A stretch of DNA of 64,000 bases, from contig NZ_STGY01000029.1 in NCBI RefSeq assembly GCF_004912275.1, forward strand, positions 63,259 through 127,258, in the 5' to 3' direction. The translations under genes and the position numbers were made by a program. Under the pieces are notes generated by a model. It saw only the letters and a program-made list of their open reading frames with translations, did no database searches and was not told the DNA's origin. Below are positions 1,535-39,174 of this stretch, piece by piece (the first letter of the stretch is position 1; each line of letters opens with the position of its first letter). The stretch is from Glycomyces buryatensis. Its GTDB lineage: Bacteria > Actinomycetota > Actinomycetes > Mycobacteriales > Micromonosporaceae.

Positions 1535-4266
1535 CGGGTCTCCTCCAGTCGGACGAGTTCGTGGAGCTGGGCGTCGCTCAGCTCGGTCAGCGCGGACTCG
1601 CCCGAACCGACCACCGTTTCGGCAAGGGCGCGTTTGGACCCCAAGAGGGCCGCGACGCGCTCTTCGAGGGTGCCTTCGCAGACGAGGCGGTGGACCTGGA
1701 CCGCCTGGGTCTGGCCGATCCGGTAGGCCCGGTCGGTGGCCTGGTCCTCGGCGGCGGGGTTCCACCACCGGTCGAAGTGGACGACATGGGAGGCGCGGGT
1801 GAGGTTCAGCCCCACCCCGGCGGCCTTGAGCGACAAGAGCATCACCGGCATCTCACCCGCCTGGAACCGCTCGACCATCGCCTCCCGGCGCCCCACGGGC
1901 GTGCCGCCGTACAGGAACTCCGCTTCGATGCCCCTGCGGCTCAAGTGTGTCGAGAGGAGGTGCCCCATTTGGGCATACTGGGTGAACACGAGCGTGGCCG
2001 CGCCTTCGGCCGCGGTGATGTCGAGGAGTTCGTCGAGCAGTTCGAACTTGGCGGATTTGCCCTTGCCCGGGTCGGTCTCCTTCCTGTACTGAGCCGGGTG
2101 GTTGCAGATCTGCTTGAGTTCGGTGAGCAGCTTGAGCACCAGGCCGCGCCGCTCGATCCCGGCGGCCTCCCGAATGGCCGTCATGGTGTCTTTGACGACG
2201 CGCCGGTACAGGGCGGTCTGCTCCCTGGTGAGCGACACGGGGTGGTCGGTGATGGTCTTGGCGGGCAGTTCGGGGGCGATACCGGGGTCGGTCTTCAAGC
2301 GCCGCAGCATGAACGGGCGCAGGATGGCGGCCAGGCGGGCGGCGGCCTCGGGGTCGCCGCGCTCGACCGATCGCCCGTACGTGTCACGGAAGGCGCTCAG
2401 GTTCCCCAGCAGCCCCGGGGTGGTCCAGTCGAGGATCGCCCACAGGTCGGTGAGGTTGTTCTCGACCGGAGTGCCGGTGAGTGCCACCCGAGCCCCGGAG
2501 CGGATGGCGCGCAGGGCTTTCGCGGTTTCGGCGGCGGGGTTCTTGGCGTGCTGGGCCTCGTCGGCGCACACCAGCGACCACTCGATGCCGGCCAGGGCCT
2601 CGGCGTCGCGACGCATGGTGGCGTAGGTGGTCAGTACGAACTCGTCCTTGCCGACGTTGTCGAGGTCGCGGCCGGGCCCGTGGAAGCGGCGCACGGCCGA
2701 ATCGGGCGAGAACCTGGCGATCTCGGCGGCCCAGTTCGCCAGGAGCGAGGCCGGGCACACCACCAGGGTCGGGCCGCTGGTGGCCCCGTCGCACTGGCGG
2801 TGCAGGTGGAGCGCGATGAGGGTGATGGTCTTGCCCAGGCCCATATCGTCGGCCAGGCACGAGCCGAGTCCCATCGACGCGAGTGTGCGCAGCCAGTTCA
2901 GGCCCCGCAGCTGGTAGTCGCGCAGGACCCCGCGCAGCGCGGCCGGTTGCGGCACGGGCCAGTTGCCGGGGTGCTCGGGGTCGGTGAGCCGGTCGCGCAG
3001 GTCGGCCAGAGATCCCGTGACGCTCACCGGGACGGCGGCGTCGCCCACGGTCGTCGACCCGGTCAGGGCGGCGCGGAGCCCTTCGAGCGGGGCCGGACGG
3101 GCCAAGCGGCGACGCAGCCGCTCGCGCAGGGCCTCGTCGACGAGCACCCACCGGTCGTCCAGGCGGACGGCCGGACCGGCCGCGTCGGCAATCCGGTCCA
3201 GCTCGGCTTCGGTGAGGTCCCGGTCCGCGCACGCCGCCTGCCATTTGAAGTCCAGCAGCCCGTCCAGTGAGAACAGTGCAGGGCCCTGCTCGCCGGATGC
3301 GGCCGATTCGATCCGCAGCGACGCCACCAAGCTCCGGTCCACCCGCGTCGACCAGCGAACCTCCACCCCGAGGTCGCGCAGATCGTCCTCGACTCCGTCG
3401 AGCAGGACGCCCAGGTCGTGCGCCTCCAGCGGGACGCTGAGTCCCAGTGAGCGGCCCAATGTCCGGATCGGACCCCAGTTGATCCGCCGGGCGACACCCT
3501 GGAACGCCTGCCGCAGTTCCGCATCGCCGATGCCGGCTTCGGCGGGCTCGACCAGCCGAGAGGGGTCGGCTCGGTCGAACAGCCGCGCCAGGCCGGTCGC
3601 CCGGCCGTCCGGCTCCAGCGACACCGCCAGCGCCGGGCCCCAGCCCTCGTCGCGCCCGCGCGCGAGCTCGGCCGCGGTGCGGGCGAAGGCGGGCAGTTTC
3701 GTCGGTTCATTGACCGCGAAGGCGTCGTGACCGGTGGTGGGTCTCGCGGCCGCCGAGCGGGGCCAGGCATCGGCGACCGCGTCGAGGAACGCCCGCAGCA
3801 GCCGGTACGGATCTGGCATCCGGATGCCCGTCCCGCTTTCGACCGGAATGGCGTAGGCGCTCGGCGGCATGGCGGCGGCCAGGTCGCGCAGGTAGTCGGC
3901 GTCTCGTCCGTCGAGCGGGCCGATCCGCCAGGCGTCGCCGCCTGCGGCGTCGAGGCCCGGCAGCAGCCGACCCGCGGCCACGCATTCGAGTGCTTTGCGG
4001 GAGGCCAGGCCCCAGGCGCGGGCCGAGTCGGTGCCGCCCGCGAGGCGGACGAGGGATTCGGCGGCGCGTTCGGGCCGCAGCAGCATCGCCGGGAACGTCC
4101 GGACCGTCCCGGCGGCGTCCGCCACGACATCGATCTCGCCCCGATCGCCCGTTCCGTCCGGGAGCGGACCCCCATCGGGCCGGTAGAAGGCAACGAGCCC
4201 GCCGCGCGGCGGATCGCTCGGGCGGAAGACGACTTCACAGTCGGATGGGGAGGCTTCGATGGTCAC
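1531..4266 (-). CDS. SNF2/Swi2-family DEAD/H helicase-like ATPase, 911 aa
   Basis: Double-stranded-DNA translocase of the SNF2 family. The C-terminal half holds the motor: Walker A in DDMGLGKT near residue 475, a DEAQ box (CADEAQHAKN) near 570, and a helicase C domain ending in motifs V-VI (GVGLNLTRA, DRAYRIGQTQ) near 830-850. The N-terminal ~450 residues are poorly conserved, as in the bacterial SNF2 'SWIM-associated' group. I prefer the GTG at 4266 because GAGG lies seven bases upstream; an ATG at 4344 is in frame but lacks such a site. It forms a two-gene operon with the SWIM gene. The role is inferred to be DNA repair or remodelling; the substrate is unknown. Confidence 0.92.
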   Translation of the reverse strand: MTIEASPSDCEVVFRPSDPPRGGLVAFYRPDGGPLPDGTGDRGEIDVVADAAGTVRTFPAMLLRPERAAESLVRLAGGTDSARAWGLASRKALECVAAGRLLPGLDAAGGDAWRIGPLDGRDADYLRDLAAAMPPSAYAIPVESGTGIRMPDPYRLLRAFLDAVADAWPRSAAARPTTGHDAFAVNEPTKLPAFARTAAELARGRDEGWGPALAVSLEPDGRATGLARLFDRADPSRLVEPAEAGIGDAELRQAFQGVARRINWGPIRTLGRSLGLSVPLEAHDLGVLLDGVEDDLRDLGVEVRWSTRVDRSLVASLRIESAASGEQGPALFSLDGLLDFKWQAACADRDLTEAELDRIADAAGPAVRLDDRWVLVDEALRERLRRRLARPAPLEGLRAALTGSTTVGDAAVPVSVTGSLADLRDRLTDPEHPGNWPVPQPAALRGVLRDYQLRGLNWLRTLASMGLGSCLADDMGLGKTITLIALHLHRQCDGATSGPTLVVCPASLLANWAAEIARFSPDSAVRRFHGPGRDLDNVGKDEFVLTTYATMRRDAEALAGIEWSLVCADEAQHAKNPAAETAKALRAIRSGARVALTGTPVENNLTDLWAILDWTTPGLLGNLSAFRDTYGRSVERGDPEAAARLAAILRPFMLRRLKTDPGIAPELPAKTITDHPVSLTREQTALYRRVVKDTMTAIREAAGIERRGLVLKLLTELKQICNHPAQYRKETDPGKGKSAKFELLDELLDITAAEGAATLVFTQYAQMGHLLSTHLSRRGIEAEFLYGGTPVGRREAMVERFQAGEMPVMLLSLKAAGVGLNLTRASHVVHFDRWWNPAAEDQATDRAYRIGQTQAVQVHRLVCEGTLEERVAALLGSKRALAETVVGSGESALTELSDAQLHELVRLEETR

Positions 4267-28091: not shown

Positions 28092-29398
28092 GCCGGTACG
28101 CGCAGGACGTCTCCGACTACCAGTTGTCGGACTACCAGCAGGCCGTACGGGCGCTGCTGAAGACGCCGTTCGTCACCGCGTCGTTCCCCGACCGCAAGAC
28201 CATCGGGCGCATACGGCAGTTCTCGGAGACGCTCGCGCTCGACCTGCGCGAAGCGTTCGGCTATCAGCTGGTGCTGCGGGGCGACACGGCGCGGCTCCTG
28301 CGTATCAAGGACCGCCTCGATGCCGGCCAGCCCGCTCAGACCCGGACCGGGCGCGAGTTCGACCGCCGCCGCTACGCCTACCTGTCGCTGATCACCGCGC
28401 TACTGGCACGTTGCGGCGCCCAGACCACCGTGAGCGAACTGGCCGCGCTGCTCAAGGCCGACGCGAACCGCATCCCCGCGTTGGGCTTCGACGAAATCGA
28501 CTACCAGCATCGTCGAGCGTTCGTGGACGTCGCAGGGTGGCTCGAAGAGCGCTCAGTGCTCCACGCCGCCGACGGCTCGTCCGACGCCTGGGCTTCCGAT
28601 CCCGAAGGGCAGGATGCGCTCTTCGACGTTGACCGCGACGCCCTGTTCGCGCTGTGGCGCTCCCGCGTCATGCTCCAGTCGGTGTCGAGTGTGGATGAAC
28701 TGCTCGGCGAGCGGGTCGCCACGGACTCCGACTCGGTGCTCAAGGACCGGGCCGGGCAGGCCGCCCGCCGGGCGGTCGTCGAACCGCCGGTCGCCTACTA
28801 CGCCGAACACCCGGAAGCGGTGGTCAACCATCTGCGCGGCAGTGCGATCGTCGAGGACCTGCAGCGACTGACCGGCCTGGTCTTCGAGCGCCGCCGCGAA
28901 GGCGTGTTGCTGGTGGACACGGCCAGGATCAGCGTGGAGGCGTTCCCGAGAGAAGGAGCCGTGGCCAACGCCGCCCTGCTGCTGCTCGTCGTCTGCTGCG
29001 ACCTCCATGTCGACCCGGACGTCGCGACGGCCGAACTGGAAGTCCCGACCGCACTCGGGGAGCGGTTGCGCCGCGACATCGACGAGGCGATTCCAGCCGG
29101 CACCGGCTTCGAGACCGACACCGAGGCCGCCCTCCGCACTATGCCGGCTGCCGAGACCGCCACTCGTCCGTTCCTGCCGGACAAGACCGTCCACGACCTG
29201 TTCGGCGACGTCTTGAACCGGTACGCGAAGAACTTCGGGCGCGACCAGCGCGAGGCCCCGATGCGGCTATTGCGCGACGCCGTCGACCTGCTCGAGCGAT
29301 ACCGGCTGGTCCGCCGCGTCGAAGGCGGGATCGCGCTGGAGCCGCTGGCAGGCCGTTACAGGAACACCGTCTTCCGCGAGGGGCACCAACGCACATGA
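28088..29398 (+). CDS. jetB: Wadjet type II subunit JetB (TIGR02678-like), 436 aa
   Basis: Second subunit, the KITE/winged-helix-type partner of JetA. At ~430 aa it is longer than type I JetB, as expected for type II. It starts YAQDVSDYQLSDYQQAVRALL, with a block FDRRRYAYLSLITALLARCG near residue 90 typical of TIGR02678. Both ends overlap the neighbours by four bases (ATGA at 28088 and at 29395), so JetA-B-C are translationally coupled in fixed ratio. Confidence 0.9.
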   Translation: MSRYAQDVSDYQLSDYQQAVRALLKTPFVTASFPDRKTIGRIRQFSETLALDLREAFGYQLVLRGDTARLLRIKDRLDAGQPAQTRTGREFDRRRYAYLSLITALLARCGAQTTVSELAALLKADANRIPALGFDEIDYQHRRAFVDVAGWLEERSVLHAADGSSDAWASDPEGQDALFDVDRDALFALWRSRVMLQSVSSVDELLGERVATDSDSVLKDRAGQAARRAVVEPPVAYYAEHPEAVVNHLRGSAIVEDLQRLTGLVFERRREGVLLVDTARISVEAFPREGAVANAALLLLVVCCDLHVDPDVATAELEVPTALGERLRRDIDEAIPAGTGFETDTEAALRTMPAAETATRPFLPDKTVHDLFGDVLNRYAKNFGRDQREAPMRLLRDAVDLLERYRLVRRVEGGIALEPLAGRYRNTVFREGHQRT

Positions 29399-32300
29399 GA
29401 TCGCCACGCTACGCCCCGACCCGGGCCGGGATCATCGGCCTGTGGGACTACGCGGACGAGGAGTTCGTGTTCGCCGACGGCTGGCTGGTATTGCGCGGCC
29501 CCAACGGCTCCGGCAAGACCAAGGCCCTGGAGATGCTGTTCCCGTTCCTCCTGGACGGCAACATCTCCCCGCGGCGGCTGAACCCGTTCGCCTCGCAGGA
29601 CCGCACCATGAAGTCCAACCTGCTGTTCGGCGGCAAGGAGAACGGCATGGGCTACGTGTGGATGGAGTTCTCCGACGGGCAGCGGCACCTCACGATCGGG
29701 ATCGGGCTGCGCGCCAACAAGCACCAGGACGCGGTCAAGCGCTGGCACTTCGTCGTCGAAGGGCGCGTCGGCGTCGACTTCGGGTTCATCGCCCCCGACG
29801 ACCGGGTCTGCAACCGCAAGGAGATGATCGCCCAATTCCCCGAAGGCACAGTGGTCGACACGCCTCGTGAGTACCGCGATCGGGTCAACACGGCGCTCTT
29901 CGGCCTGGAGGCCGAACGGTACGAACAGATGCTCGAGTTGATCTTGACGCTGCGCAGACCGCAGCTCGCGAAGGAACTCGATCCCGACTCGCTCTCGGAC
30001 ACCCTGGCCGAAGGGCTGCGCCCGATCGACGAGAAGCTCCTCGTCGACGCCGCCAAGTCGTTCGAGGACATGGAGGCGGTCGCCAAGACGCTCGGGAGCC
30101 TGCGTTCGGCCGACGAGCAGGTGAGCGATTTCCTGACGCGGTACGGGACCTACGTCAGAGCGCAGGCGAAACTGGCCGTCGAGAAGGTCGACGGCCGCCT
30201 CGCGGCGGTCGAGACCATGCTCGAAGCCGAGACCGAAGCCGGGCGGCTCGCGAAGAGAGCCGGAGCGGAGCTGCTGCGGCTGACCGCGGCGGCCGAGACG
30301 GCCACCGAGCACGTCGGCGAGCTGGAGGGTTCGCTTCAGGGGCTCAAGGACTCCGATGCGTACCGGTCCCGTCTCGAGCTGGAAGATCTGCGCGGCTCCG
30401 TCGGTTCGGCCGAGCAGCAGGCGAGCGTCCTCGCCGAGGAGTCCCGGACGCGCGCCGAGGAGTTGGAAGAGGCCGAGTCGGAGTCCGAAGAGCTCGCCGA
30501 GAAGACCGGTACGGCCGAGGCGACTGTGGAACTGCGATCCGGCGAGACCGCGGGTTTCGCCGAACGGAGCGGCATCGAATGGGGATTCACCGATGACGCC
30601 GAACGGCTGCGCCGCGGTGCCGCTGCGGCTGCCGAGGAACGCAGGAGCGACATACGGCGGGTGGGCGAGGCCGGAAAGGCCCTTGATACGGCGATCTCGC
30701 AGCGCGAGACGGCCGAGGAGAAGGCCGCGGCCGCCGAGTCGAACCTCGATGCGGCCGCTGAAGCATTGGTTCACGCACATGAAGCGGTCATCGCCGAACG
30801 CGATTCGCTCGAGCGGAACCTGGAGGATTGGGCGTGGGACCACCGCAATGCGCTCAGGATCGACCTGCGGGAGGAAGTGGTCTCTTGGGCCGCTGAGGCC
30901 GACGTCGAGACCGCGCCGCACCTGCGCGAGAGAGCGACCGAGCGCACTCACGCCACGCGCGGGGAGATCGAGCAGCGCATGCACGGCCTCAAAGCGCGCC
31001 TCGGCGGTGTCGAAGACGCCATCGAAGCGAAGCAGACTGAGTGGGAGCGGATCAGGGACGAACACGATGAAGCGCCCGACGCTCCGCACTGGCGCGACGA
31101 GGGCCGCGACGGGCGTCCCGGAGCGCCGTTCTGGAAGCGGGTCCGGTTCAAGGACTCCGTCCCAGACGGTGACGCTGCGGCCCTAGAAGCCGCGCTCGAA
31201 GCAGCCGGGATTCTCGACGCCTGGCTCGGCGACATCGGAGCGGCTTCCGACCAAGGCCTCCGGGCGCTGCCGATCAGCTCGCGGCCGACCGGGTCGACCC
31301 TCGCCGACTTCCTAGAGCGCGAGGACACCGCCGATGCCGCCGCCGTCGAGCCGATCCTCGCTTCGATCGCAGTTCGCGAACCGGCAGACGGCGACCATGC
31401 GCCGTATTCGATCGTCGACCCCGCAGGGCGGTTCGCGCACGGTGCGGTCGCCGGACGGGCGGGCAAAACGACCCCGGAATTCATCGGCGCCACGGCCCGC
31501 CAGCGCCGACGCGAGCGTCGTATGCAGGAGCTCGAAACCGAGATCGACGGGCTGCGGGGCAAGGTCCGTGAACTCCGGGACGCCGTCAACGGGTGCGGTT
31601 CGGAACTCCGGGCACTGGACGAGGCACTGCGCGACATACCCCGCACGACCGGCTTGGTGCAGAGCCTGAACAACGTCACCGCCCGGGAACTGGTCTGCTC
31701 GGAGCGCGAGGGCGATCTCGAGGATGCCCGAACGGCTCTGGAGGAAGCCGTTGGGCGGCAACGCGGGGCGGCACAGCGACTCCAGGAGGCCGAGCGACGC
31801 CATGAGCTTCTGCGCGGCGACCTCGAATCCGTGGGGCGGGCCGTGGCGGACTTCGACGGATCGGTTCGCGACCTGCTGTTCGCGATGCATTCACAATCGG
31901 ACCTCCAAGGAAGACTCCAGCGGCAGCAGACGCGGGTGAGCCGACTCGGCCCGAGTGTCCGATCCATCCAGGCCAAGGCCAGGGACGCGGAGGAGGAGCA
32001 TCGAAAGCTGCAGTCGCGGCTGGAGGCGATCACGCGGAACCTCGGTGCGGACGCGGCCACGATCTTCGAGCAGATCGCAGCTGTCGGAGCCGAGATAAAG
32101 CAGGCAGGGCAGGCCGTCAAGGAGGCCGACCAGTTGCGTGAAAAGGCCGTGCGCGCCGAGGGCCGCGCCGGCGCCGAAGCCGAGGCCGCCGCCGGGCGGA
32201 CCGTGGACGCCATCGGCGAGGCCCGCGTGGCGAGCTTCGCGTTGCGGCCGTTCTGCGATGACGACCTGCTCGGCATCCTCGGCTGCCCGAGCGGCCATCG

Positions 32301-33432
32301 CTGGCCCGGGACCGATGTAGACCTGGGGAGGTCGGTGCTCCCGGCTGCCGTCGCCGCACTGCTCGGCGACCTCCGCTCCGCGACGTCCGAAGTGCAGGCC
32401 ACCGAGAACAGCGCCAAGGCCGCCACCACGATCGTCACCACCCGGCTGCAGGAGATCATGGCGCAGCTTCCGGCGACCGGACTGGACCACCACCTCCACT
32501 GGGACAATTCCAGCGGCATCATCACCGTCGAGGTGGACACCGACGAAGGGCGGCAGGCGATCGGCCACTACGGCCAGTGGCTCCACGAGCAGCGGGAGGA
32601 GCAGGAGGAGCTGCTCACCGAGAAGGAGCAGCACGTGCTGGAGGACGCCTTGCTGACCTCGCTCAGCGGTCAGATCCACCAGCGCGTCCTCGAATCCCGG
32701 GACCTGGTCGAGCAGATGGACCTCGCCATGCGCGAGCGCCAGACCTCCTCAGGACTGCGGCTCGGGGTCTCCTGGCTGCTCAAGGACTTCGACCCGGCCG
32801 AACGGGAGCTCTTCTCCCTATTCAACGCCGCCCCGGCGAAGCTGTCGACGATGATGCCGCAGATCCGCAAGTACTTCTCCGACCGGATCAAGCAGGAACG
32901 CGCCCGCCGCAAGTCGGAGACGACGTACCGGGACCTGCTGGCCGAGATCCTCGACTACCGCCGGTGGCGCAAGTTCGAGTTCACGCTCCTGCGGCCGGAC
33001 GGGCAGAAGCAGCGGCTCACCAAACGAGTACATTCGCAGCTTTCGGGCGGTGAACAGTCGGTGGCGCTGCACTTGCCGCTGTTCGCGGCGGCGAACGCCG
33101 TGTTCGGTTCGGCGACCGCGCACGCGCCGCGGATGGTCGGACTCGACGAGGCGTTCGCCGGGGTCGACGAGAAAGGACGTGGGGAGCTGATGAGCCTCGC
33201 CGCCGAATTCGACCTCCAGATGGTCATGACCGGCTTCGACCTTTGGGCGACGTTCCCGGAAGTGAACGGGGCGGCGCACTATTCGCTGAGCCATGACGAT
33301 GCGACCGCAACCGTCTCGGCGATGCTGATGGTGTGGAACGGCTCCGAGAACACCGAATCCCATGATTACGACGGTTCGCTGGCGGAGGCGCTCGGGTCGT
33401 CGGGGACACGGATGGTGCCGGTTGAGAACTGA
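29395..33432 (+). CDS. jetC: Wadjet type II SMC-like ATPase JetC (TIGR02680-like), 1345 aa
   Basis: SMC/MukB-type motor that, by family knowledge, extrudes plasmid DNA loops and presents small circular DNA to JetD for cleavage. Walker A RGPNGSGKTKALE is at residues 34-46. Long heptad-rich coiled coils occupy ~230-500 and ~690-1000, separated by a hinge-like region. The ABC signature SQLSGGEQS is near 1213 and Walker B RMVGLDEAFAGVDEKG near 1245. All ATPase motifs are intact. The length matches type II JetC. Its stop lies 11 bases after the proposed JetD start. Confidence 0.95.
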   Translation: MRSPRYAPTRAGIIGLWDYADEEFVFADGWLVLRGPNGSGKTKALEMLFPFLLDGNISPRRLNPFASQDRTMKSNLLFGGKENGMGYVWMEFSDGQRHLTIGIGLRANKHQDAVKRWHFVVEGRVGVDFGFIAPDDRVCNRKEMIAQFPEGTVVDTPREYRDRVNTALFGLEAERYEQMLELILTLRRPQLAKELDPDSLSDTLAEGLRPIDEKLLVDAAKSFEDMEAVAKTLGSLRSADEQVSDFLTRYGTYVRAQAKLAVEKVDGRLAAVETMLEAETEAGRLAKRAGAELLRLTAAAETATEHVGELEGSLQGLKDSDAYRSRLELEDLRGSVGSAEQQASVLAEESRTRAEELEEAESESEELAEKTGTAEATVELRSGETAGFAERSGIEWGFTDDAERLRRGAAAAAEERRSDIRRVGEAGKALDTAISQRETAEEKAAAAESNLDAAAEALVHAHEAVIAERDSLERNLEDWAWDHRNALRIDLREEVVSWAAEADVETAPHLRERATERTHATRGEIEQRMHGLKARLGGVEDAIEAKQTEWERIRDEHDEAPDAPHWRDEGRDGRPGAPFWKRVRFKDSVPDGDAAALEAALEAAGILDAWLGDIGAASDQGLRALPISSRPTGSTLADFLEREDTADAAAVEPILASIAVREPADGDHAPYSIVDPAGRFAHGAVAGRAGKTTPEFIGATARQRRRERRMQELETEIDGLRGKVRELRDAVNGCGSELRALDEALRDIPRTTGLVQSLNNVTARELVCSEREGDLEDARTALEEAVGRQRGAAQRLQEAERRHELLRGDLESVGRAVADFDGSVRDLLFAMHSQSDLQGRLQRQQTRVSRLGPSVRSIQAKARDAEEEHRKLQSRLEAITRNLGADAATIFEQIAAVGAEIKQAGQAVKEADQLREKAVRAEGRAGAEAEAAAGRTVDAIGEARVASFALRPFCDDDLLGILGCPSGHRWPGTDVDLGRSVLPAAVAALLGDLRSATSEVQATENSAKAATTIVTTRLQEIMAQLPATGLDHHLHWDNSSGIITVEVDTDEGRQAIGHYGQWLHEQREEQEELLTEKEQHVLEDALLTSLSGQIHQRVLESRDLVEQMDLAMRERQTSSGLRLGVSWLLKDFDPAERELFSLFNAAPAKLSTMMPQIRKYFSDRIKQERARRKSETTYRDLLAEILDYRRWRKFEFTLLRPDGQKQRLTKRVHSQLSGGEQSVALHLPLFAAANAVFGSATAHAPRMVGLDEAFAGVDEKGRGELMSLAAEFDLQMVMTGFDLWATFPEVNGAAHYSLSHDDATATVSAMLMVWNGSENTESHDYDGSLAEALGSSGTRMVPVEN

Positions 33433-34621
33433 GCTCGGCCCCGAATGGCGTCGGCTCCTGAAGGCTGCCGCCGCGGCGATGGAGCGCGAGGCCGGCAGCT
33501 TCTCCATCAGCGATGCCGACACGGCGGAACGGCACCTGATCATCGGCATCACCGGCAGGCACCGGCGTGCCGCGCAGAGGACGCTACGGCTGACCGTGGC
33601 GGAGTTGGAAGCGTATGTCGCAGCGGAGTTCAGCGTCGACCTGAAGGCGCTGATCCTCTCCGAGTTCGACGTCGAGGTCGGGGCCGCACGACAGAGGCGA
33701 CTCGAACGGGACGCAAGCGTCAGGCTGCTCCTCGCCGACACGGACGCCTCCTCCCTGTCGAAGCTCGAATGGTTCGGCTCGTGGCTCGACTCGCTGCGGG
33801 CCAACGGCACGCTCGCAGAGTTGGCGCGCGACGGCGCGAGCCTGGGACCGATCATCCGGCTCTTGGAGTCCCTGCCCGTCGATGACGAACCGATGCCGGT
33901 GCTCGCCGAGCGGATGCTGGGCGACACGAAGGCCCTCGCCTCCGGACGGTCGCGCGGGATGTTGCTGCGGGCGCTGGCGGTCTGGCGCGGTATCGAATAC
34001 CCCGAGGACAACGAGTCGGAACGGGAACTATTGGAGTGGGCGGGGATCGTCTCGGACGACATCGCCAGCCAGGTCTTGGTGCTCAACGTTCCGATCGCCG
34101 GCGGCACCGTGGGGGAATGGATGAGCTCGGCGCGCGGGATCCCATTCCGGCTCACGCTCCAGCAACTGCGACGCGAACCGTTCAGTATCACCGCTTCCAC
34201 GGTCAGAGTGGTCGAGAATCCGTCGATCATTCGAGCCGCCGCTGATGCGCTGGGCTCGGATTGCCCTCCGCTGGTATGCACCGAGGGGGTCCCGTCGGCA
34301 GCGCTGTACCGGCTGCTGGCGTCCGCAGGCGAAGCCCGGATCCTGTGGAGGGCCGACTTCGACTGGGCGGGCATTCGCATCGTCAAACGCGGGCTCGACC
34401 GGTTCTCGAACGCCGAACCCTGGCGCATGTCGGCCGCTGACTACCAATCAGGAGCCAAGGGCATCAACTTGCGCGGCAAACGCATCGAGACGCCTTGGGA
34501 TCAGAGGTTGGAAGAACTCATGGACGCCTCAGGGCGGGCGGTGATGGAGGAAAGTCTTCTCAACCAACTGTTGCAGGACCTCCGTTATAACGCCGCGCAG
34601 ACGGATCTGAACGAACACTGA
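33422..34621 (+). CDS. jetD: Wadjet type II nuclease JetD (TIGR02679-like), 399 aa
   Basis: Topoisomerase VI-like nuclease subunit that cuts the recognised plasmid. The C-terminal Toprim-like domain is intact: Glu in VCTEGVPSAALYRLL near residue 286 and the DxD pair in RADFDWAG near 310. The start is taken as TTG 33422, inside the end of JetC, because homologous sequence begins with RTELGPEWRRLL. An ATG at 33362 is in frame but would give a 70-bp overlap and an unlikely Arg-rich leader. A weak GGATGG lies upstream. All four subunits are therefore present and apparently functional. Confidence 0.9.
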   Translation: MRTELGPEWRRLLKAAAAAMEREAGSFSISDADTAERHLIIGITGRHRRAAQRTLRLTVAELEAYVAAEFSVDLKALILSEFDVEVGAARQRRLERDASVRLLLADTDASSLSKLEWFGSWLDSLRANGTLAELARDGASLGPIIRLLESLPVDDEPMPVLAERMLGDTKALASGRSRGMLLRALAVWRGIEYPEDNESERELLEWAGIVSDDIASQVLVLNVPIAGGTVGEWMSSARGIPFRLTLQQLRREPFSITASTVRVVENPSIIRAAADALGSDCPPLVCTEGVPSAALYRLLASAGEARILWRADFDWAGIRIVKRGLDRFSNAEPWRMSAADYQSGAKGINLRGKRIETPWDQRLEELMDASGRAVMEESLLNQLLQDLRYNAAQTDLNEH

Positions 34622-37849: not shown

Positions 37850-38584
37850 GTGACGAAGCTGAACCAGATCATCGCGATCGAGAAGAGCGTCAAGAACAAG
37901 GCCGCCAAGTCGCTCGGCGATGCCGGGCGCGAGCTGAACAAGGCGCCGCTGCTCTCGGGGATCTCGCGCAACTACCAGCCCAAGGACGAGGAGGGCGAGC
38001 AGCTGCCGCCCGAGTCCACCAAGGTGAAGCGCCGCGTCGAGGATCAGCTCAGCGAGGTCGCCGACTCGATGACCCGCCTGTTCGACGTCGTCGCGACCAA
38101 GGACCGCTCGAACGCCCTGGCGACCGCCGATGTCACCGTCGACGGCGAGGTGCTACTCGAGGACGTGCCCGTCACGTACCTGCTCTTCCTGGAGAAGCAG
38201 CTGGCGGAGCTCCAGACCTTCGTCAAGGGCCTCCCGGTGCTGGACGAGGGCGAGTCGTGGTTCTTCAACGAGTCCGCCAACTGCTTCGCAACCGAGCCGG
38301 TGAAGACGGTGCGCACCAAGAAGGTTCCGCGCAACCACGTCAAGGCCGAGGCTACCGAGGAGCACCCGGCGCAGGTCGAGGTCTACTACGAGGACATCCC
38401 CGTGGGTTACTGGACCACGATCAAGTTCTCGGGTTCGGCGCCCGCCAAGCGAGTGGCGACCCTGACCGCCCGGCTGGAGAAGCTCCAGCACGCGGTCAAG
38501 TTCGCCCGCGAGGAGGCCAATGGCGCCGAGGTGGTGGACCAGCAGGTCGGAGCGAAGGTCTTCGACTACCTGCTGGGCGACTAG
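37850..38584 (+). CDS. DUF7873-type conserved protein, 244 aa
   Basis: Starts with GTG 37850 after a strong AAGGAGA. Distinctive blocks are KLNQIIAIEKSVKNKAAKSL, SGISRNYQPKDEEGEQLPPE, PVTYLLFLEKQLAELQTFV, a VRTKKVPRNHVKAEATEEHP segment and YEDIPVGYWTTIKFSG. I recall this as an actinobacterial family labelled DUF7873, without known function. It is soluble, charged, with helical ends. It stops 49 bp before the first Y-RNA-like element, same strand, so it may be co-transcribed with the RNA cluster. That neighbourhood suggests an RNA-linked role, which is inference. Confidence 0.8.
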   Translation: MTKLNQIIAIEKSVKNKAAKSLGDAGRELNKAPLLSGISRNYQPKDEEGEQLPPESTKVKRRVEDQLSEVADSMTRLFDVVATKDRSNALATADVTVDGEVLLEDVPVTYLLFLEKQLAELQTFVKGLPVLDEGESWFFNESANCFATEPVKTVRTKKVPRNHVKAEATEEHPAQVEVYYEDIPVGYWTTIKFSGSAPAKRVATLTARLEKLQHAVKFAREEANGAEVVDQQVGAKVFDYLLGD

Positions 38585-38633
38585 AGTTTGGAAACCTCCT
38601 GCTTTGAGCGGCAGGGGTGCGCGAAAGCGCAAA

Positions 38634-38766
38634 GCTGAAACTGAGATTCAGTCTTAAACCTCGCGGTAGAGATGGGGGTTCGAGTCCCTCCCGCCCCACC
38701 TTCGGGGCGGTGGCCCAAATGGTAGAGGCAAGCCGCATAATCTGAGACTCTCGCTCTAGATTCAGC
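38634..38766 (+). ncRNA. Y RNA-like element 1 with permuted tRNA module
   Basis: The order of tRNA parts is circularly permuted. Anticodon-stem 3' strand GCGGT (38663-38667) and a six-base variable loop come first. Next are the T-arm (stem GGGGG/CCCTC, loop TTCGAGT) and acceptor 3' strand CCGCCCC (38691-38697), then the linker ACCTTC, acceptor 5' strand GGGGCGG (38704-38710), a D-arm with TGGTA, and anticodon-stem 5' strand GCCGC (38732-38736). Outside this core the flanks pair as a long bulged stem: TTA/TAA, TTCAG/CTGAG, GAGA/TCTC and GCTGAA (38634)/TTCAGC (38766). A capped acceptor stem plus a long closing stem is the YrlA-type Y RNA layout. Confidence 0.75.
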
Positions 38767-38770
38767 ATTC

Positions 38771-38933
38771 GCCACGTCGCGCGAGACCGCGAGTAGCGCC
38801 TAATTGGACATCGAAGTTGGGGGTTCGAATCCCTCCCGCCCCACCACAAGGGGCGGTAGCTCCAATGGTAGAGCGCGATGCTGTTAGTAGCTTCAAGGGC
38901 CTACCGGAAGGTCCGCAGCGGCGAACATGTGGC
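38771..38933 (+). ncRNA. Y RNA-like element 2 with permuted tRNA module
   Basis: Same permuted order with an almost perfect core: CATCG (38809-38813), variable loop AAGTT, T-arm GGGGG/TTCGAAT/CCCTC, CCGCCCC (38836-38842), linker ACCACAA, GGGGCGG (38850-38856), TA, D-arm GCTC/CAATGGTA/GAGC, G26-like, CGATG (38876-38880), which pairs exactly with CATCG. The stem continues as CTAAT/GTTAG, AGC/GCT, GACC/GGTC, CGTCGC/GCGGCG and GCCA/TGGC out to 38771 and 38933, with internal loops. The anticodon position is split by the stem, so it cannot decode unless processed. Acceptor and T-arm sequences are nearly identical to element 1, which indicates duplication. Confidence 0.78.
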
Positions 38934-38938
38934 ACATG

Positions 38939-38972
38939 GCGGCCCGGGATAGAGGTCAACTACCCGGGCCGC
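38939..38972. repeat. GC-rich inverted repeat after the second Y RNA-like element
   Basis: GCGGCCCGGG and CCCGGGCCGC form a perfect 10-bp stem, with TAG/CTA pairing inside the 14-base loop. It lacks a U-tract. It may be a terminator or a processing structure separating the Y-like RNAs from the downstream tRNA pair. Its CCCGGG core recurs in the acceptor stem of the next tRNA-like gene. Confidence 0.5.
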
Positions 38973-39013
38973 ACCTATTCCCATGGCGGGCATCGAATAC
39001 GATGCCGAGCAAT

Positions 39014-39091
39014 GCCCGGGTGTAGCGCAGTGGCAGTCGCGCCCTTATTGCATGAGGAGAGGACGCCGGTTCGATTCCGGCCACCCGGGCA
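39014..39091 (+). tRNA. Aberrant tRNA-like gene, anticodon unclear (possibly TGC)
   Basis: Conventional 5'-to-3' order: acceptor CCGGGTG (39016), TA, D-arm GCGCAGTGGCAGTCGC, anticodon hairpin CCTT-ATTGCAT-GAGG, GAGGAC, T-arm GCCGG/TTCGATT/CCGGC and CACCCGG. Pairing continues two bases beyond the normal stem (GC/GC), giving nine base pairs and leaving no free NCCA end. The anticodon region can also close as a six-pair stem with a TGC triloop. D- and T-arms are nearly identical to the tRNA-Cys next door, so it is a diverged copy. Charging is doubtful. Confidence 0.5.
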
Positions 39092-39098
39092 GGCTCCA

Positions 39099-39174
39099 GG
39101 TCCTGTAGCGCAGAGGCAGACGCGCCGACCTGCAGAGTCGGAGGACGCCGGTTCGATTCCGGCCGGGACCACCA
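39099..39174 (+). tRNA. tRNA-Cys (GCA) with encoded CCA and atypical discriminator base
   Basis: Full cloverleaf: acceptor GGTCCTG/CGGGACC (one G-T), TA, D-stem GCG/CGC, anticodon stem CCGAC/GTCGG with loop CTGCAGA (anticodon GCA at 39132-39134), AGGAC, T-arm GCCGG/TTCGATT/CCGGC, then ACCA. U33 and a purine at 37 are present. The discriminator is A, whereas bacterial tRNA-Cys normally has U73, so recognition by the normal cysteinyl-tRNA synthetase may be poor. It is probably an accessory tRNA in addition to a standard one elsewhere. Confidence 0.8.

Follow-up and report, generated by a model that had tools for sequence, protein, structure and literature searches.

A 64,000-nucleotide stretch of the Glycomyces buryatensis genome (the window) contains two tandem elements in which the 3' half of a tRNA core precedes its 5' half. 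This raises the question of whether they are Y RNAs of the YrlA type, permuted tRNA genes or parts of something larger. A sequence-only reading had taken them for two separate RNAs of ~130 and ~160 nt and had overlooked the neighbouring gene, which encodes a DUF7873 protein and whose presence predicts the RNA. This gene-plus-RNA pair recurs in soil bacteria and phages; the RNA looks like a so far unrecognised kin of the bacterial Y RNAs that has another protein partner.

The permuted modules and the RNA that contains them

In both elements a T-arm, a loop-closed acceptor stem and a D-arm follow each other in permuted order (Table 1), and the 6-nt and 7-nt acceptor loops do hold the ACC (element 1, ACCTTC) and ACCA (element 2, ACCACAA) that had been read in them. 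Folded alone, element 2 adopts exactly the permuted cloverleaf as its MFE structure (-31 kcal/mol, z -2.72; 1 of 200 shuffles equal), as had been proposed. A scanner for permuted modules returned seven matches in the window, the two elements scoring 32.6 and 28.3 and the other five 24.4-26.8; the scanner, its thresholds, the repeat motif and the hairpin criteria used below were fixed after part of the data had been looked at. The description of the elements as YrlA-type modules is supported. The YrlA model of Rfam in E-value mode matches both beneath its cut-off of 69 bits, with 34.2 bits for element 2 (E 4.4e-5, 2.5 kb searched), spanning model positions 23-86 only, and with a weak match of 26.8 bits for element 1 spanning positions 1-114. 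In gathering mode, Rfam 15 left the RNA of the window without any family, and in 17 related loci this mode returned only tRNA, tRNA-Sec and tmRNA, with no YrlA or other family.

We searched 22 genomes of the genus, taken as Glycomyces and including the genome of the window, by DNA similarity with the RNA region. Matches were obtained in 18, of which 17 were counted as bearing the region because the match in genome G004 covered only 41 bases at the 3' hairpin; this genome (locus L019) is without DUF7873, and the 41 bases are either a remnant or unrelated. The 17 aligned sequences, found by DNA similarity alone and not picked by the scanner, outline a common layout: a pair of 5' hairpins and a repeat array come first, then module 1 and a conserved stretch, and finally module 2 at the tip of a long bulged stem and a terminal hairpin. 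Instead of two RNAs, the alignment shows one conserved unit of ~385 nt, which reads as a single RNA with both modules as its parts. In the window it begins ~10 nt past the DUF7873 stop codon and has an MFE of -172 kcal/mol (z -4.76; 0 of 100 shuffles equal).

Table 1. Features of the DUF7873 locus, in positions of the window
Feature	Position	Strand	Details
DUF7873 (PF25283) protein gene	37850..38584	+	244 aa, GTG start; Pfam E 1.5e-110; candidate protein partner
Entire conserved structured RNA	38594..38977	+	alignment of 17 sequences (own included); ends approximate
5' hairpin	38596..38617	+	MFE; sequence kept in genus alignment; RNAalifold pairs part of it elsewhere
Second hairpin, GCGC-GAAA-GCGC	38618..38631	+	genus alignment, RNAalifold, MFE
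Period-6 repeat array (YUSANN), 5' of module 1	38635..38656	+	score 15/16 at period 6
Module 1 (element 1), permuted tRNA-like core	38663..38736	+	T-arm 38674-38690; acceptor 38691-38697/38704-38710; loop ACCTTC 38698-38703; D-arm 38713-38729 (3-bp D stem)
Conserved stretch 3' of module 1 (CTGAGACTCTCGCTCTAGATTCAGC...)	38742..38773	+	partial complementarity to 5' array
5' strand of long bulged stem around module 2	38771..38808	+	GCCAC at base
Module 2 (element 2), permuted tRNA-like core	38809..38880	+	anticodon stem 38809-38813/38876-38880; T-arm 38819-38835; acceptor 38836-38842/38850-38856; loop ACCACAA 38843-38849; D-arm 38859-38874 (4-bp D-stem)
3' strand of stem around module 2	38881..38933	+	GTGGC at base, 38929-38933
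Terminal hairpin	38939..38975	+	loop AGGTCAA, tail ACC; RNAalifold
tRNA gene Ala(TGC), outside conserved unit	39016..39090	+	ARAGORN; 41 bits
tRNA gene Cys(GCA), outside conserved unit	39099..39174	+	ARAGORN; 60.5 bits

For the 17 genus sequences RNAalifold gave 89 pairs, 17 of which have changes on both sides, and these compensatory changes show the two permuted tRNA cores to be real. Double changes in module 2 affect two anticodon-stem pairs (in five and four sequences), an acceptor pair (four) and a T-stem pair (eight), and one inner pair of the terminal hairpin is changed on both sides in 5/17 sequences. Several pairs of the stem enclosing module 2 (alignment columns 208-233 with 338-373) are likewise double-changed; the suggestion that the anticodon side opens into a long bulged stem is thus supported for element 2. 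Module 2 is present in all 17 genomes with the region. Module 1 reaches a scanner score of at least 27 in nine of them, with L007 just below, and retains its TTCGA T-arm in 12, while a different stem takes its position in five (L012, L014-L017).

Alignments across genera were built from a scanner-picked, non-redundant subset (58 of the 80 bacterial loci described below after an 85% filter), giving 52 rows for module 2 and 35 for module 1, the window included in each; module 1 of L044 was left out of the former, and module 1 of L074, L075 and L081, which have long loops, out of the latter. For module 2, 86.3% of cells are paired versus at most 46.1% when slid (T and acceptor stems 100%, D 96.6%, anticodon 45.0%), with 205 double-change cells against a shuffled mean of 73. 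For module 1, 100% are paired versus at most 63.1%, with 62 double-change cells against 14, and its 3-bp D stem is invariant across the 35 sequences. Since we read the low anticodon value as a shift of the alignment by differing variable-loop lengths, the anticodon stem, which had not been used in selection, was counted separately: it pairs in 71/87 bacterial and 46/93 viral distinct modules, compared with means of 21.1 and 4.6 (maxima 35 and 10) in partner-swapped controls. Because the cross-genus rows were picked for pairing, it is this count and the RNAalifold result for the genus that carry the covariation argument.

To our knowledge, the enzyme for BHB splicing is not expected in bacteria, which bears on the idea that the elements are permuted tRNA genes processed to functional tRNAs. 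The permuted order and the CCA-like loop would fit such genes. PMC3978253 counts 34 of them in six algae and one archaeon, and proposes that RNase P and tRNase Z remove the acceptor loop from their precursors. The known cases need BHB splicing, however (PMC3978253). ARAGORN calls no tRNA over the two elements, its nearest calls being those at 39016 and 39099, the bulged stem directly prolongs the anticodon stem of element 2, and in the genus alignment of 17 the sequence past this stem is no conserved anticodon. We regard this origin as highly improbable. A tRNA in ordinary order finds some footing in the window itself, where E-value mode (though not the faster gathering scan) gives an Rfam tRNA match of 32.8 bits at 38704-38843 (family cut-off 29), joining the 5' half of element 1 to the 3' half of element 2 across an 83-nt insert, and where the unpermuted acceptor strands do pair. 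In 79 homologous two-module loci, however, these strands pair at a mean of only 4.22 of 7 positions, with six or more in 8/79, and an unpermuted intron-bearing tRNA was rejected; the permuted acceptors of the same loci, which were selected for pairing, pair at 6.95 and 6.97 of 7.

The Ala(TGC) and Cys(GCA) tRNA genes directly 3' of the RNA are mutually similar and may be the relic of a tRNA array; ARAGORN finds no tRNA downstream in 11 Glycomyces loci (L034-L044). About 3 kb upstream of the DUF7873 gene, at 29395-34621 of the window, PADLOC identifies JetC- and JetD-like genes of a type II Wadjet defence system.

Linkage to DUF7873 in bacteria and phages

Within the genus, DUF7873 and the RNA occur together in 17/22 genomes, and the other five have neither. 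In a sample of the class, DUF7873 was found in 37/394 genomes, one of them with weak fragments only. A scan with a DUF7873 alignment provided the best 80 of at least 542 confirmed bacterial relatives and the best 80 of 352 viral loci, 79 of which entered the module counts (L155 has no stop codon in the locus). At least one module scoring 27 or more lies within 700 nt downstream of the stop codon in 80/80 of these bacterial and 59/79 of these viral loci, and two such modules in 41 and 24, respectively; the remaining 20/79 viral loci have none at this threshold and distance. The same threshold yielded 0/80 bacterial and 3/79 viral loci upstream of the gene, 0/159 loci on the opposite strand and 1/795 shuffles (1/400 bacterial, 0/395 viral). 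At a score of at least 30, 66/80 and 36/79 loci retain a downstream module and all controls fall to 0, while a scan that ignores the anticodon stem finds a module in 79/80 and 62/79. Chance occurrence is ruled out by the upstream, opposite-strand and shuffle controls together with covariation, and the comparative data show DUF7873 to be co-inherited with the structured RNA that directly follows it.

For ten named DUF7873 loci, loops of up to 60 nt and a score of at least 25 were accepted. Nine have one or two modules within 620 nt, namely those of Arthrobacter, two Gordonia, Rhodococcus, Rhizobium, Vibrio and Klebsiella phages and of Streptomyces and Nonomuraea; in Gordonia phage Fryberger the module appears only at this looser setting. 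Pseudanabaena phage PA-SR01 carries two modules ~600 and ~780 nt downstream of DUF7873. A single permuted module with the loop ACCACGA lies at position 3009 of the Nocardia farcinica plasmid pNF2 locus (L033), whose 6 kb include no annotated DUF7873; the gene that follows the module is without a Pfam match.

The closeness of gene and RNA, which begins ~10 nt past the stop in the window and places the first T-stem 82-143 nt past it in 44 two-module bacterial loci, could also suit a cis-regulatory 3' element through which the expression or stability of DUF7873 would be under feedback control. In our judgement its size, its several covarying domains and its conserved motifs exceed those of a usual 3' stabiliser, and we consider such a role rather unlikely.

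In phages, the locus often sits among tRNA genes. ARAGORN calls a tRNA in the flanks (up to 4 kb a side) of 45 of the 80 best viral loci, 29 of which have three or more, and 298/301 calls are on the same strand. Among the 80 best bacterial loci only 15 have a tRNA call in their vicinity, six of these calls lying over part of the RNA. The DUF7873 stretches of Racecar, GodonK, NiceHouse and RHph_TM39 contain 7, 18, 10 and 14 ARAGORN tRNAs, and that of the Klebsiella jumbo phage none. On the IMG/VR contig L148, a tRNA cluster containing DUF7873 also holds a tmRNA match (1384-1912, 90 bits) that is unusually long at 529 nt.

The consensus of DUF7873 includes a conserved basic stretch, RTKKVPRNHV..EATDKHPAQV, which in a confident structural model (mean pLDDT 94.4) of long helices and two long strands lies on these strands (151-166 and 175-190). 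A fold search turned up neither solved nor viral relatives at E below 0.001 (best solved E 0.13), a sequence search of the PDB gave nothing convincing (best E 0.073 over 41 residues), PHROGs returned no match for four DUF7873 members and PADLOC none for that of the window. Because no convincing solved relative of the fold emerged, the RNA-binding role that we infer for DUF7873 rests on its linkage to the RNA and on the basic stretch.

Gene and RNA form a candidate pair that experiments can address directly, given its linkage, its covariation and its joint occurrence. At a probability of roughly 0.6, our favoured interpretation is that the RNA is one half of a tRNA-imitating DUF7873 ribonucleoprotein, which would work in a way similar to Ro60-YrlA and need not belong to that system; the anatomy of the RNA is what points to a particle with a protein other than Ro60. 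The RNA, carrying one or two permuted tRNA-like modules and in many loci also period-6 repeats and a terminal hairpin, would come from one transcript with the DUF7873 mRNA. DUF7873 would grip its repeats or stems, taking the place of Ro60, and the tRNA-like elbows would dock or decoy a tRNA-handling enzyme, by analogy with Ro60, which with YrlA tethers PNPase. That the RNA often lies close to tRNA genes in phages hints that it helps to make, protect or counterfeit tRNAs in the course of infection, and bacterial copies may be domesticated or shared versions.

Repeats, terminal hairpin and acceptor loops

Upstream of module 1, the window's YUSANN array scores 9-12 at periods 4, 5, 7, 8 and 9, below its value at period 6. 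Counted with related sequences taken in, as are the loop counts below, a period-6 array reaches at least 14/16 in 47/80 of the best bacterial and 27/63 viral loci and at least 15/16 in 36/80 and 15/63, and stays below 14/16 in 33/80 and 36/63. The control periods 4, 5, 7, 8 and 9 gave no case at 15 or above and one in all at 14 or above, and shuffles gave 0/715. A period of six would suit a protein touching the RNA every six bases. The two repeat arrays are partly complementary, though, and could pair with each other instead of binding protein: their duplexes have a mean z of -1.93 in 28 bacterial and -1.19 in 19 viral loci, and RNAalifold, with a local hairpin in the 5' array, disagrees with the MFE fold, which has a long-range helix.

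When the longest hairpin of each locus was surveyed, one of 12-13 bp with a 7-nt loop was found in 39/80 of the best bacterial and 28/62 viral loci. Its loop fits N-GG-N-Y-A-N in 39/39 and 24/28, and [AG]C[CT] follows it directly in 37/39 and 16/28. No hairpin of at least 9 bp was found in 18/80 bacterial and 13/62 viral loci; these include most Glycomyces, whose terminal hairpin is interrupted by a bulge.

The acceptor loops were compared in distinct modules with loops of at least 6 nt, five shorter ones being dropped. For bacterial module 1, bacterial module 2, viral module 1 and other viral modules in turn, the second position is C in 39/45, 57/58, 28/29 and 40/45, and the loop starts with N-C-[CT] in 33/45, 57/58, 26/29 and 38/45, above the shuffled maxima of 22, 26, 14 and 20. 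The last base is T in 36/58 bacterial modules 2, 17/29 viral modules 1 and 30/45 other viral modules, and in only 9/45 bacterial modules 1.

An N-C-Y loop start and a frequent U before the 5' acceptor strand resemble RNase P substrates. These features, and the [AG]C[CT] after the terminal hairpin, are consistent with cleavage of the acceptor loops by RNase P, on the pattern of permuted two-piece tmRNA; the mature RNA would then consist of two or three pieces with CCA-like ends. A full CCA after the first loop base, however, occurs in only 17/45, 18/58, 16/29 and 19/45 modules of the four groups in turn, and the N-C-Y start also appears in 5/30 modules linked to TROVE. We view such cleavage as a tentative alternative to the favoured ribonucleoprotein. 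Similarly speculative is a bolder form of the latter, in which DUF7873 and its RNA would be a widespread, undescribed actinobacterial and phage ribonucleoprotein, a multi-piece tRNA mimic coated by DUF7873 on its period-6 repeats that diverts tRNA-processing or tRNA-attacking enzymes during infection. The RNA would display as many as three helices of acceptor type (in module 1, in module 2 and in the terminal hairpin), each followed by N-C-Y(-A), and RNase P and tRNA end-processing enzymes would cut or trap at these sites.

Relation to Ro60-YrlA and other known systems

No paper in the literature searched names DUF7873 or matches PF25283, phage-encoded Y RNA or permuted tRNA-like; 'Y RNA-like' alone matched papers, and some of these RNAs may already be mentioned as YrlA. 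For DUF7873, a family of unknown function, the pair supplies a candidate RNA partner. It also shows YrlA-type tRNA-mimic modules to be independent of Ro60. The tRNA clusters of phages, of which the parts other than tRNAs are poorly understood, gain a large RNA.

Like the DUF7873 RNA, GOLLD and ROOL are large ornate RNAs that are also found in phages. They occur close to tRNA genes. Neither model matched in 17 related loci (141 kb), and we know of no permuted tRNA modules in either. Permuted two-piece tmRNA (RF04321) shares with the DUF7873 RNA the order of 3' acceptor strand, CCA-like loop and 5' acceptor strand; it differs from module 2, which has a 4-bp D-stem, and RF04321 scores only 23.1 bits against a cut-off of 47. 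With this score, and with a normal tmRNA encoded elsewhere in the genome, a tmRNA identity was rejected. Permuted tRNA genes of algae and one archaeon also have swapped halves, but the DUF7873 RNA has no conserved anticodon, no known splicing route and a linked protein gene.

The closest comparison is with YrlA itself (RF02553), and it has to be weighed whether a Ro60 (Rsr) protein, encoded elsewhere or lost, is the partner of these RNAs, which would then be ordinary Y RNAs of the YrlA type. The permuted module is the same, and a TROVE match exists in 6/22 genus genomes, all six among the 17 that bear the RNA. In agreement with the earlier remark that no Ro60 was in view, however, there is no TROVE match in the window's own genome, nor in 11/17 RNA-bearing genomes (own included), and two genomes (G001 and G015) hold a TROVE locus with its own tetraloop module alongside the DUF7873 RNA. 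Rfam bit scores failed as a separator, as their ranges overlap: the YrlA model gives 31.5-48.8 bits in 12/31 TROVE loci and 56.2 for one near TROVE in G060, and 29.7-44.7 in four of the eight DUF7873 loci given, three of which span model positions 1-114. The gathering score of 69 is reached neither by the window, the 17 related DUF7873 loci and the 12 TROVE loci nor in any of the 149 genomes scanned, and is a weak test because TROVE-linked loci fall below it too.

Other features do differ. We compared the DUF7873-linked modules with 30 distinct TROVE-linked ones. These come from 18 of 31 TROVE loci of the genus and class; the other 13 show no module, and the 31 are partly dependent, since at least two genes appear in two loci each. 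Among loops of at least 6 nt, N-C-[CT] starts characterise 154/182 distinct DUF7873-linked modules and 5/30 TROVE-linked ones; loops of 5 nt or less occur in 5/182 and 19/30 (3-5 nt), compared with 6 and 7 nt in the window. A period-6 array (score at least 14) and the 12-bp hairpin with a 7-nt loop are each found with 0/30 TROVE-linked modules, the latter versus about half of DUF7873 loci. With these differences we judge an ordinary YrlA identity unlikely, and distinctly less probable than the favoured DUF7873 ribonucleoprotein.

Side by side with these comparisons stand several mixed cases. A few TROVE-linked modules carry loops such as ACCACAC. Locus L240 (genome G076, minus strand, scanner positions 86-541) has four permuted modules ~150 nt apart beside a TROVE gene; with this Ro60-linked locus, and with the tandem yrlBA beside rsr (rsr-yrlBA) already published, the tandem arrangement loses the novelty once claimed for it. 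In Klebsiella phage KP13-26 (L032), a DUF2828/DUF7788 protein gene (1251-2678) with a weak vWA_Ro60 match, a point in favour of the YrlA identity, is followed inside a tRNA cluster by two permuted modules (2998 and 3141), possibly a Ro60-type version of the same gene-plus-RNA layout. Published work notes TROVE proteins in a small subset of jumbo phages (PMC7824862), Y RNAs in mycobacteriophages (PMC12282133, citing Chen 2014) and YrlA matches in mycobacteria and their prophages. YrlA is described as carrying a tRNA-like domain, as modified by DusA and TruB, and as tethering Ro60/Rsr to PNPase (PMC8394870), and its domain has been proposed to compete with an anticodon nuclease (PMC7790460).

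YrlA and the DUF7873 RNA are alike in their T-arm, loop-closed acceptor, D-arm and an anticodon stem running into another stem, in possible tandem modules and in an adjoining protein gene; the DUF7873 RNA differs in having DUF7873 and not TROVE as its partner gene, and in forming one unit of ~385 nt. The border with Ro60-linked YrlA is not sharp, and the two RNAs are best seen as kin that share a module.
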